A DNA stretch of 64,000 bases from Molossus alvarezi. Taxonomy: Eukaryota > Chordata > Mammalia > Chiroptera > Molossidae. Below the pieces are notes generated by a model. That model saw only the letters and a program-made list of their open reading frames with translations. It did not search any database and had not been told where the DNA came from. Positions 36,901 through 42,900 of the stretch are shown one piece after another. The position numbers and the translations under genes are program-made. The stretch covers positions 62,891,001-62,955,000 of the forward strand of contig CM073887.1 in assembly GCA_037176705.1 (NCBI GenBank), written 5' to 3'. How positions within the stretch are numbered: the stretch's first letter is position 1; each line of letters opens with the position of its first letter.

Positions 36901-39900
36901 TTTTTGGCTGAATCTGTTGTTCAATAAATAGGATGCCTTGAGCAAGTGGCAGCCCTGAGTAGATACTAATCACACGAAATGTAGGACAAACCCAGTTCAG
37001 GCACTGTTATCCACACCATCCAGTGGACTCCTGTCAGCACAGATGCTCATCTTGCTGTTGCATCCCACCCCCATCCCGCCATAGGGAACACCTATTCTTA
37101 CTGTTAGCTTATACAGTGATACCTCGGTTCTCGAACATAATTCGTTCCAGGAGGACGGTCGAGAACCAAATTGTTCGAGAACCGAAGCAATGAAACCAAT
37201 AGGAAATAATGGAAACTGGATTAATTCGTTCCAAGCCCCAGAAAATGCCTATTTACTGGCCTAATTTGTATATAATATGTAGAAAAACATAAGTCTCAAC
37301 AAGAAATAAAAGTGTACAGTATGTATTAAAAAAAATAAAATAAAATGTACTCTCTCCACAAAGCGTGACTCTCTCTCTGCACTCACACTGATGACGCAAG
37401 CAAGGCGCGCTGGGCCAAATGAACGCCATTCGGCTCAACTCGGCTCATCTCGGAAGTTCGAGTTCCAAATATTTGTTCAGATTCCGAGACAAAAGTTTCT
37501 CGAATCTCCTGGTCGAATACCGATTTGGTCGAAAACCGAGGCGTTCGAGAACCGAGGTATTACTCTGATACATTTTATTTTATTTTTTTTAATACATACT
37601 GTACACTTTTATTTCTTGTTGAGACTTATGTTTTTCTACATATTATATACAAATTAGGCCAGTAAATAGGCATTTTCTGGGGCTTGGAACGAATTAATCC
37701 AGTTTCCATTATTTCCTATTGGTTTCATTGCTTCGGTTCTCAAACAATTTGGTTCTCGACCGTCCTCCTGGAACGAATTATGTTCGAGAACCGAGTTATC
37801 ACTAGTACTACTTTTTGCTTACCCAGACAGTGTCCTTTATTCCATGATCTGTGGGCCACTCTTCCCACCTTCTTTTGGCTTGGACAGATCAGGTGGTCAA
37901 AATGCAAAATAAAACAAGAATGTAAGGAGTAGGGTCTGGGATTTAAATACCTCGGTTCTCGAACGCCTCGGTTTTCGACCAAATCGGTATTCGACCAGGA
38001 GATTCGAGAAACTTTTGTCTCAGAATCCGAACAAATATTTGGAACTCGAACTTCCGAGATGAGCCGAGTTGAGCCGAATGGCGTTCATTCGGCCCAGCGC
38101 GCCTTGCTTGCGTCATCAGTGTGAGTGCAGAGAGAGAGTCACGCTTTACACTGAATTTAACCCTTAGACATGGGTCCAAAGAAAGCCAGAAGTGGTAATG
38201 CAGACAAAGGTAAGCGGAAAGCTGTGAGAACAACTATTGAGCTGAAGAAAGAAATCATTGCCAAATATGAACAGGGCACACGTGTTTCGGATCTGTCTGC
38301 TGAGTATGGCGTGCCAAAATCAACCATCTCTACTTTCCTTAAGAATAAAGCTGTTATAAAGGCTGCCAATGTTGCCAAAGGTGTTACGCTGATAACTAAG
38401 CAAAGGCCTCAGATAATGGAGGAAATGGAGAAGCTGCTCCTTATTTTCATTAAAGAAAAAGAGTTAGCAGGTGACAGCATCAATGAGGTCGTTATTTGTG
38501 AGAAAGCACTACAAATATTCAGTGATCTGAACAAAGAAACACCTGGTACAAGTGGTGAAGGTGCTTTCACGTTTAAAGCCAGCAGAGGTTGGTTTGAGAA
38601 TTTCAGACATAGAAGTGGCATACATTGCGTCACTAGGCATGGGGAAGCAGCTAGTGCAAACCAGGAGGCTGCTAATAACTTCATTAAAGAATTTAGTGAC
38701 TATGTCAAGGCAGAAGGGTTTGTTCCTGAGCAGGTGTTCAACTGCGATGAGACTGGATTATTCTGGAAAAAAATGCCAGCCAACACCTACATAACCAAAG
38801 AGGAGAAAGCACTACCAGGGCACAAGCCTATGAAAGATAGGCTTACTCTTTTGTTTTGTGCAAATGCAAGTGGTGATTGCAAGGTAAAACCCTTGCTTGT
38901 CTACCATTCAGACAATCCCAGGCCATTCAAAAGGCACAATGTAATGAAGAGTAAATTGGCTGTGATGTGGCGGTCTAACACCAAAGCTTGGGTTACCAGA
39001 CAATTCTTTACAGAGTGGGTGCGTGAAGTTTTTGCACCTCGAGTGAAGGAATACCTGGCAGAAAAAAAATTGCCTTTAAAATGTCTATTAGTGATGGACA
39101 GTGCTCCTGCTCACCCCCCAGCTTTAGAGGAAGATCTAGTTGACTATAGCTTCATCAAAGTAAAATTCTTACCCCCCAATACAACCCCTATTCTGCAACC
39201 CATGGACCAACAGGTCATATCCAATTTCAAGAAATTGTACACAAAGGCCCTCTTCCGGAAGTGCTTTGAAGTGACAAATGACACACAGTTAACTCTGAGG
39301 GAATTTTGGAAAGAACACTTCAACATCCTAAATTGTGTAAACTTGATTGACACTGCTTGGAGTAATGTCACTCATCGCACATTGTATGCGGCATGGCGAA
39401 AACTATGGCCCGAAAGGGACAGTGAGGGTTTAGAAGCTGAGTCAGCTCCTGTCGTTGATGAAGATGTTGCTGTAGTTGATGATATTGTGGCCATAGGAAA
39501 GACCATGGGCCTTGACATTCAACAAGATGACATCAACGAACTTGTGGAAGGTCACGCTGCTGAGTTAACCGCCGAGGAACTGATGCACCTACAACAACAG
39601 CAGCAGAAGGATATGGTGGAAGAAATTTCTTCTGAAGAAGAGGAGAGAGTGGAGGATATTTCTAGTGGCCTTATTCATGAAATGTGTGCAAAATGGGCAG
39701 AAATCGCAAACTTTGTTGAACAACATCACCCTGATAAAGTGGTAGCAAATAGAGCAGTTAACATTTTTAATGACAATGTTATGTCCACTTTCCGCAAAAT
39801 TTCTGAAAGGAGAAAAAAACAGCAAACAATTGAAAAATTCTTCCGTAAAGAAATCAGACAAGTAACTGCAGAGAAAGATTCTGATTCTCCTCAGCAAAAG

Positions 39901-42900
39901 ATACAGAGAACAGAAACACCCGAAGAGCAGTTACCCTCTGTTTTTATTGACGAGGACTCCCCTTCAAGACAATAAAGGTTGGTACAGGTACAGTAAATGA
40001 AACACAATTTACTGTACTTTATAGTACATTTTATTTTATTTTTTTTAATACATACTGTACACTTTTATTTCTTGTTGAGACTTATGTTTTTCTACATATT
40101 ATATACAAATTAGGCCAGTAAATAGGCATTTTCTGGGGCTTGGAACGAATTAATCCAGTTTCCATTATTTCCTATTGGGTTTCATTGCTTCGGTTCTCGA
40201 ACAATTTAGTTCTCGACCGTCCTCCTGGAACGAATTATGTTCGAGAACCGAGGTATGTTTTTATTGATTTTTTTAGAGAGAGAAGAAGGGAGAGAGAGAA
40301 ACATCCCATCAATGTGAGAGAGAAACGTAGATTGGCTGCCTCCTGCATGCCCCCTACTGGGGATCAAGCCTGCATGCAACCCAGGCATGTGCCCTCACCG
40401 GAAATTGAACCCATGACCCTTTGGTCCGTAGTTAGAGCATCAGCCTACAGACCAGAATTGTGGTTTCAATTCCGGTCAAGGGCACGTCCTTCTGTTGTAG
40501 TGCAGTTCCCAGCCCTGGTGGGGATCATGCAGGAGGCAACCATTAGATGTGTCTCTCTCTCTTTCTTCCTCCCTCCCTCCCTCCCTCCCACTCTTATCTG
40601 AAGAAAAATAGAAAAATATCCTTGAGTGAGAATTTAAAACAAATCAAAACATGGACAAAAATGGGGAAGTAAAAGGTAGGCATAGCCCTGATCAGGTTTG
40701 CTCAGCAGTTAGAACATTAACCCGCAGACCAAAAGGTCTCTGGTTTGATTCCTGGTCAAGGGCACGTACCTGGGTTGCTGGTTCAATCCCCAACCCCAAA
40801 CAATTGCTATGTCCTCTGACATTGATATTTCTCTCCCTCTCCCTCCCTCTCTTCTACTCTATCTAAAAAGCAGTGGAAAAATATCCTCAGGTGAGGGTTA
40901 ACAACAAAAGGAAAAAAGGCACAAAAGGCTGAGTTAAGGAGACAGGTGAGAGAACTCATTTGTGGGAGTGAGTGCATGCCATTCACCTGTAGGAAGAAGA
41001 AGCACCATCATGGAGGAACCCTAGTCAGATCTGGGAAAGCAAGCTATTTGTGCAACCAAAACACAGGAGTCTGCTGTACAAGTCTTAGAGTCTCCCACAG
41101 GAGAGGAGCTTAGGACAGGAAAGATGTTCATCTGCAGAAAAATTTGGGCCACCTGGAAAGCAGAGAGAATCTGTAAACACACCAGGCACAGATACTTTCA
41201 CTCAGCATGTGTAAGACACATACAACTAAGAATCACAGGCTGGTTAGAAATTCCTTTTGTGGGAAATTTGAAAGTATATGAAATAAGTGGGAAAAGTCAA
41301 GTATGAGTTTTTTGGTTTTTTTTAATCCTCACCCGAGGACATTTTTCCATTTTTTATTCAGCTAGAGCGGGAAGGGGAGAGAGCAAAAGAGAGAGAGAGA
41401 AACATTGACGTGAAAGGGACACATCGAGTGCCGCCACCCGCACAACCCAACCAGGGCCAGGAACAAACTGCAACCGAAGAACATGCCCTTACCAGGAACC
41501 GAACCCGGGTCTCTCTGGACCGCGGGCCGACGCTCTAACCACTGATCCAAACCAGCTAGGGCTCAAGTATGAGTTTTATGTATGTGTACACTAATAGCAG
41601 CCGTGTGTGCACTTAAGGGTGATGTTTGAAAGGGAATATGAGAGAAAAAATAGTTTCTGTGTTCAACAGTCATATTAGAGGTAAAAATGTCAAGGCTTAG
41701 AGGCTACATTTCCTAGGAGAGTTTTGCCAGAGCTCCTAGTTACCCTAGGTTTCTAGGTGGTGGTTTGAGGGAAACTGGGCAGGATCTAGTTGGTGGTGCT
41801 ACCTTGAATATGCAGGGAGGGCTCCCTAGTATCTTAGACCTCAGAATCCTTGTTCCACAAAGTGTATTAACCTCCATCAAAAATACTCTTGGGAGCCCTG
41901 GCTGGTTTGGCTCAGCAGTCAGAGTGTCGGCCTGCGGTCCAGAGAGACCCGGGTTTGGTTCCCACTAAGGTCATGTACCTCGGTTGCAGTTTGTCCCCGG
42001 CCCTGGATGGGTTGCGCAGGTGGCAACCACTCGATATGTCCCTTTCATGTCGATGTTTTTTTTTTCTCTCTCTCTCTCCCCACTTTATCTGAACAACAAC
42101 AACAAAAAAATGTTCTCGAGTGAGGATTTAAAAAAAAAAAAAACTCTTGGGAAATCGCTGCTGCACTGTGGGTCCAGGGCAGTCCTTTTGCCAAGCCAGC
42201 CACAAACCTAAGTGTGCCGGTGTGTGTGCATTATTTCTTCATTTTCCAGTTCTAAAAGTGATACTAGCCCTGGTCGGTGTTGCACTCAGTGGTTAGAGAG
42301 AGCATCAGCCCAAGCACCAAAGTGTCTCAGGTTTGATTCCCGGTCTAAGGCATGTACCTGGGTTGCAGGTTTGATCCCTGGCCTGGTCAGGGCGCGTGTG
42401 GGAGGTAATCAATCAATGTGTCTCTCTTATATCAATGTTTTTTTCTCTCTCTCTCTCTCCCCCCTCTCCCTCCTCCCTCCCCTCCTCTTAAAATCAGTGG
42501 ATAAAAATATCCTTGGGTAAGGATTAACAACAAAAAAAGGGATACTAGTTCATTGGGGAAATTTAGAGAATATGAAAAAGGAAGATGATGGCAATGACTG
42601 GTACTTTTATACCCCAGGAAAACAAATGCAGCACTTAGGGACCTCTTTCAGTCTGCCTCTTCATTCACGTCACGTGTGTAAATGAGTGTTGTACAAAGGG
42701 ATTATGCTGTGTTCGCCATTCTGTGTCCCTCTGAATGGTTTAATGAGAGGCTATTACCCTATCCTTTTTGATGGCTACGTGATACTCTGTCATACTGACT
42801 TCCAGGTTGCACAGTTCAGTCAATTGTGGTTTTTCACTGTTCTACACAGCACCGTGGTGACCACCTCAGTTTATAGAACGCTCAGTTAGCTAATGGGATC

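Follow-up and report, generated by a model that had tools for sequence, protein, structure and literature searches.

A very young Tigger transposon family in a bat genome, with good evidence for horizontal transfer and with damaged copy tips

The stretch of bat DNA analyzed here (the window; 64,000 nucleotides, C10:62891001-62955000 of a 2.50-Gb genome) carries a 2304-bp copy of a Tigger/pogo-type transposon in the last intron of GATAD2A (Table 1). Protein matches place GATAD2A coding exons at 36537-36740 and 43075-43206, on the same strand as the transposon and on either side of it, in agreement with the intronic position given in a first-pass annotation of this DNA. Downstream of this intron lie the coding sequence of NDUFA13 and a TSSK6-like open reading frame (ORF), and the short interspersed element (SINE) sequence adjoining the transposon resembles bat Ves SINEs.

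The transposase ORF of the window copy is open from its ATG to its TAA, as annotated at first pass, and encodes a CENP-B-like N-terminal helix-turn-helix (HTH), a Tc5-type HTH and a DDE_1 domain with a DDD triad, the features of the Tigger/pogo group. It is not a chance reading frame, because three Pfam domains score above their curated cutoffs, PF04218 and PF03221 (the two HTH regions proposed earlier) among them. The CENP-B DNA-binding structure 1hlv aligns with the transposase (E 6.8e-9), and a structure model of the protein is poor (mean predicted local distance difference test score 58, predicted template modeling score 0.27). Aspartate is conserved at positions 193, 310 and 346 in 29, 31 and 27 of the 31 aligned sequences, respectively, the window sequence included, and the protein nests among Tigger transposases in the phylogenetic tree, so that both the catalytic triad and the Tigger identity of the first-pass annotation hold. 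The window ORF departs from most relatives at two places: one codon of the catalytic domain, present in all 30 other aligned relatives, is absent, and residue 311 is S, while 25 of the 31 aligned sequences have N and one other relative has S. The bat copy L006 also has S after D310.

Table 1. Features of the transposon copy and its surroundings, in window positions.
Feature	Position	Strand	Remark
Last intron of GATAD2A	36741..43074	+	approximate edges, from protein matches
438-bp miniature derivative	37114..37559	-	both element ends, no gene; same intron
3' half of a further miniature copy	37569..37805	+	adjoins the 438-bp miniature in opposite orientation
5'-edge TA	37948..37949	.	internal in complete copies (CAGTGATACC); target duplication unproven
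Tigger/pogo-type transposon copy, 2304 bp	37950..40253	+	outermost terminal bases gone at both ends
Remainder of 5' terminal inverted repeat, 15 bp	37950..37964	+	
Leader site without one 19-bp unit	38131..38132	+	approximate; relative to 38 other copies
Transposase ORF, 601 aa	38170..39975	+	ATG to TAA
CENP-B_N helix-turn-helix, aa 20-63	38227..38358	+	Pfam PF04218
HTH_Tnp_Tc5 DNA-binding domain, aa 84-152	38419..38625	+	Pfam PF03221
Catalytic D193 codon	38746..38748	+	in CDETG
DDE_1 catalytic domain, aa 222-409	38833..39396	+	PF03184, E 1.6e-41
Catalytic D310 codon	39097..39099	+	in MDSAPAH; next residue S, N in most relatives
Site of one missing codon	39138..39143	+	approximate; codon present in 30 other aligned relatives
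Catalytic D346 codon	39205..39207	+	in QPMDQ
Remainder of 3' terminal inverted repeat, 15 bp	40239..40253	+	
3'-edge TA	40254..40255	.	internal in complete copies; target duplication unproven

A DNA search of the bat's own genome returned 43 matches, the best 40 of 1354 candidates being scored. L040 and short search pieces were excluded from the copy counts, L039 was counted as a single span although an insertion interrupts it, and L034 was lengthened so as to include its 5' end. The resulting near-full set comprises 39 copies, the window copy included, at 36 distinct sites, picked as best matches and not at random. These 39 copies differ from their majority sequence by 0.05-1.18% at non-CpG sites and by 0.26-1.43% overall; the non-CpG values of the 38 copies other than the window copy are 0.05-0.9%, with one at 1.2%. 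Intact ORFs of 601-602 residues are found in 15 of the 39 copies and at 14 of the 36 distinct sites, the window included, with L020 and L027, which have identical flanks, counted as one. These values agree with the recent insertion proposed at first pass, and among the copies seen (the best 40 of the 1354 candidates) there was no population of copies diverged by more than 10%. L020, L027 and L037 (C1, 120-130 Mb) represent one Tigger insertion present three times with near-identical flanks, two of the three with the ORF, and point either to a large segment that was duplicated recently or to an error of assembly.

Exact-pattern counts across the genome, which are lower bounds, gave at least 1018 5' ends and at least 106 gene starts, together with at least 530 miniature copies of a 298-bp type and at least 489 of a 438-bp type. 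A sample drawn in contig order, consisting of 40 of the first 42 5' ends on C1 (L019, near-full, and L080, 438-bp, were skipped; both have altered tips), split into 298-bp copies (27), 438-bp copies (11) and two of neither class. Mean divergence was 0.31% for the 298-bp copies (n=27) and 0.46% for the 438-bp copies (n=11). If neutral sites change at about 2-3e-9 per site per year, the burst of the autonomous element and its 438-bp and 298-bp derivatives would fall roughly within the last 1-3 million years, and the family looks, from its sequences, young enough to be still moving.

The autonomous element is about 2.34 kb long with its full ends, encodes a 602-residue transposase and targets TA. 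Canonically, the family ends TA-CAGTGATACC...GGTATCACTG-TA, with a terminal inverted repeat (TIR) of 23 bp (CAGTGATACCTCGGTTCTCGAAC) and TA flanks in canonical copies, in keeping with the TIR of about 20 bp and the TA duplication of the group; the start of the TIR, CAG..ATACCTCG, resembles that of human Tigger1. The canonical end is exact at the 5' side in 17, and at the 3' side in 21, of the 36 distinct near-full sites. Past the edges of the window copy, sister copies canonically read TACAGTGATA before CCTCGG (5') and TATCACTGTA after CCGAGG (3'), and most of them extend further, the canonical form having CAGTGATA to the left and TATCACTG to the right, and then TA. The window copy lacks these outermost 5-6 bp at each end. 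The 15-bp inverted ends and the bordering TA dinucleotides reported at first pass are present, the latter being possibly internal to the element; the description of the copy as full-length was rejected on the evidence of 38 sister copies, most of which extend past its edges. It is also without a 19-bp unit of the 5' leader that all 38 other copies carry. This unit (window about 38112-38150) occurs once, twice or three times depending on the copy. The window copy is therefore not a complete autonomous element: the outer 5-6 bp are absent at both ends, and its ORF, while open, is one catalytic-domain codon short. Because the tips, the leader unit and the codon are gone and S follows D310, a window copy that is both working and mobile is unlikely on sequence grounds, which would not in itself prove the enzyme dead; the copy is probably immobile. 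Of the earlier suggestion that this copy might encode a working enzyme, or one able to mobilize short relatives, the mobilization of short relatives by some source stands, and a working enzyme from this copy has become less plausible.

Damage to the tips is widespread in the family and unevenly distributed among copy classes. Genome-wide, the exact outer end TACAGTGA is found on 780 of the 1018 exact 5' cores, and among the remaining 238 are both ends with a single substitution and ends that have gained or lost bases. Both tips are exact at 10 of the 36 near-full sites, in 26 of 27 298-bp copies and in 26 of 51 438-bp copies; the last figure combines 18 of 40 best-matching copies with 8 of 11 drawn by contig order (8 of 12 with L080). 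Among the copies on C1 up to 198.7 Mb whose core is exact, 51 of 52 of the 298-bp form but 22 of 32 of the 438-bp form have an exact outer 5' end (p=1.9e-4, uncorrected; a few sites are duplicates of each other), as do 35 of 48 when all non-298-bp copies are taken together. The 5' core itself is not exact in 3 of 55 298-bp and 16 of 48 438-bp copies on C1. The recurrent changes are a gained A (CAAGTG) or C (CCAGTG) and the loss of either base, and they fall at the position expected for the staggered cut of a Tc1-type enzyme. An extra full CGGTTCTCGA repeat near the 3' end is present in 26 of 27 298-bp copies, and in none of the 438-bp copies (0 of 11 and 0 of 39). Age was ruled out as the cause of the contrast in tips, both miniature forms being similarly young, and assembly error should affect both forms.

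We infer that the altered tips are scars of one-ended transposase cuts. The transposase would recognize CGGTTCTCGA-type repeats near both ends, move copies in trans, and cleave in the manner of Tc1/mariner enzymes, with a flush cut at the 3' end and one about two nucleotides within the 5' end. Cuts made at one end and resealed with small errors would leave altered tips, and scarred copies such as the window copy would be immobile yet still able to carry the gene. For the Tc1/mariner element ISY100, excerpts of one report describe cuts two nucleotides inside the 5' ends and, when single ends are cut, less precise cleavage with dead-end products (PMC2170065); a single-end-break intermediate of mariner is described in an excerpt of another (PMC4027188). 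In the 298-bp form, the extra CGGTTCTCGA repeat could make two-ended cleavage more reliable.

Ragged tips might instead arise at integration, when the host repairs the gap (TA and the recessed 5' bases) incorrectly, with no later one-ended cuts. The tip changes do fall in the gap region, and L002 lies inside a Ves-type SINE with TA on both sides and yet has CAAGTG at its 5' end. However, the 298-bp copies, which are similarly young and presumably insert in the same way, are clean (26 of 27 at both ends, 51 of 52 at the 5' end), and we regard this origin as less likely than not. By eye, L002 and L081 occupy the same TA of a Ves-type SINE, both with 5' CAAGTG. L007 shares the first 74 bp of the 3' SINE flank of L002 at 100% identity, followed by different DNA, and has a different 5' flank; the two copies are about 2 Mb apart on contig C63, and the common flank looks like one carried along with the element, or a rearrangement.

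The tips of the window copy in particular could also mean that it transposed from shortened ends, the inner TA (CAGTGA-TA-CCTCGG) having been used on both sides, so that its TA flanks would be a true duplication and ends 6 bp shorter would still be mobile. On both sides the window copy breaks off at this internal TA and is bordered by TA, and L103 is shortened to the same inner TA on its 5' side and to a TA lying one base deeper on its 3' side. A mobile shortened form would nevertheless be expected to have founded a subfamily, and pattern counts gave such a subfamily weak support: only 25 of the 1018 exact 5' cores are without GA before the inner TA (10 have a base other than A, 15 an A not preceded by G), nearly all of these 25 by eye have either a largely preserved outer end with a small alteration or a normal 3' end, and shortening on both sides is confined to the window copy, L103 and perhaps L086. 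Transposition from shortened ends is accordingly improbable.

The relatives of the transposase point outside mammals. A protein database search gave 669 matches at E<=0.001, of which the best 120 were listed, in a database clustered at 90% and not organized by species. The closest among the matches listed were a protein of the coral snake Micrurus (A0A2D4Q5L4), one of the frog Leptodactylus fuscus, an unnamed ENA protein (83%) and a prediction from Molossus molossus; the other proteins among the best 120 of the 669 were at most 68% identical to the window transposase, and most named proteins among these 120 are annotated as tigger. Over aligned residues, the window transposase is identical to the Micrurus protein at 563 of 601 positions (93% counting gaps) and to the L. 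fuscus protein at 545 of 572 (91% counting gaps). In a quick maximum-likelihood tree of 32 rows, the bat, frog and snake sequences form one clade with a Shimodaira-Hasegawa-like approximate likelihood ratio test (SH-aLRT) value of 100, separate from a Molossus/Miniopterus/Myotis Tigger1-like clade. The L. fuscus sequence sits on a 186-Mb contig. A second search, started from the snake protein, yielded no further close taxon among its best 120 matches, so that close named taxa number three among the 120 matches listed per search. A scan of viral contigs for the transposase gave one pattern match and none that was confirmed. The protein identity of 94-95% between bat and snake or frog (a comparison of proteins only) and the conflict between element tree and host tree are a strong sign of horizontal transfer, as the first-pass annotation had guessed. 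Its allusion to vesper bats was not borne out, since the nearest named bat sequence among the matches listed is that of Molossus molossus. Compared one by one with the 14 distinct intact copies, this prediction (P0004) is identical at 415-419 of 424 core residues. Because it differs from all 14 at four positions, at one of which the bat copies have A and the Molossus, snake and frog sequences T, the host is perhaps a species other than M. molossus, or P0004 belongs to another subfamily.

Vertical descent of a Tigger long present in mammals, through a single conserved source copy, would fit the wide and mostly ancient occurrence of Tigger in mammals, as given in excerpts of PMC9219625. It is very improbable in view of tree paths of 0.047 (bat-frog) and 0.066 (bat-snake) changes per column, the position of the other named bat Tiggers in the tree outside this clade, and the 63-64% identity of the three older bat Tiggers compared. 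Domestication, with the window ORF kept intact for the host, finds an intact ORF inside a gene intron in its favor and is hardly credible against many near-identical copies and ORFs intact at 14 distinct sites, and with divergence so low the intactness needs no selection.

The window copy is probably a dead-end copy of a young pogo-group Tigger transposon that was acquired horizontally by the bat lineage and then multiplied, and on our reading its altered tips are scars of one-ended cuts. Horizontal arrival would have been followed by the spread of the autonomous element and of its 438-bp and 298-bp deletion derivatives. A more far-reaching proposal, which we put forward tentatively, is that this genome is a natural record of aborted transposition: a still-active Tigger would keep cutting single ends, error-prone resealing would strip the tips of gene-bearing and 438-bp copies and leave immobile transposase sources, and the 298-bp form would escape through its extra binding repeat and take over. 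Several points weigh against these interpretations. On C1, copies of neither miniature class, some of them gene-bearing, are exact at the 5' end in 13 of 16 cases, better than the 438-bp copies, and tip damage therefore does not rise steadily with length. The 438-bp and 298-bp forms differ by only 140 bp, so length alone is no explanation of the clean ends, and the extra CGGTTCTCGA repeat may be their real cause. Both tips are exact at 1 of 14 near-full sites with an intact ORF versus 9 of 22 with a broken one, a borderline difference (p=0.054, uncorrected), and single substitutions account for some of the 238 inexact 5' ends. Moreover, the 36 near-full and the 40 best-matching 438-bp copies were selected by similarity to the window copy and are not random, the UniRef record that supplies the snake sequence has no contig, so that contamination is possible for Micrurus, and the argument for activity is drawn entirely from sequence.

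Besides the transposon, the intron holds further material of the family. At window 37112-37807, the minus-strand 438-bp miniature and the plus-strand 3' half together make up an inverted block about 0.7 kb long, bordered on its outer sides by TA, which may be an aberrant transposition product. A pairing like that in the window intron occurs at L030 (C32:14859038-14862514), where about 15 bp separate a near-full copy from an oppositely oriented miniature copy; local hopping is a possible origin.

Living DNA transposons are rare in mammals, and bats are the main exception. With the known Tigger family of the pogo group (Tigger1, TIGD1-like), the present element shares the CENP-B-type HTH pair, the DDD triad, the TA target, a length of about 2.3 kb and a TIR of about 20 bp; it differs in that most bat copies are less than 1% diverged and several have intact ORFs. 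According to excerpts of PMC9219625, most mammalian Tiggers are truncated and old, and Hipposideros armiger is the one mammal for which current activity is suggested; Molossus, Micrurus and Leptodactylus are not named in the excerpts of its main text. The Micrurus and L. fuscus transposases, compared as proteins, have the same domain order in other hosts. As in the DNA-transposon waves of vesper bats, recent cut-and-paste activity in a bat has been accompanied by miniature derivatives, whereas the Miniopterus and vespertilionid Tiggers in an excerpted table of PMC4971623 are 8-16% diverged. Excerpts of PMC9409754 make no mention of Tigger. No description of the present family was found in the open-licence literature, judged by titles and abstract openings. 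Bats have reportedly been described by Paulat and colleagues in 2023 as a hotspot of DNA-transposon transfer, in a work that may already catalogue this element.

The family is a very young addition to the known Tigger group, with good evidence for horizontal transfer, represented in the window by a damaged copy, and its tip scars are its least expected feature. Divergence mostly below 1%, many sites with an intact ORF and near-identical relatives in a coral snake and a frog would make this Tigger a good example of recent transfer between vertebrates. Judging from these sequences, the family is a candidate for an active mammalian pogo element, and the damage to its tips would offer a countable signal of failed transposition in the germ line.

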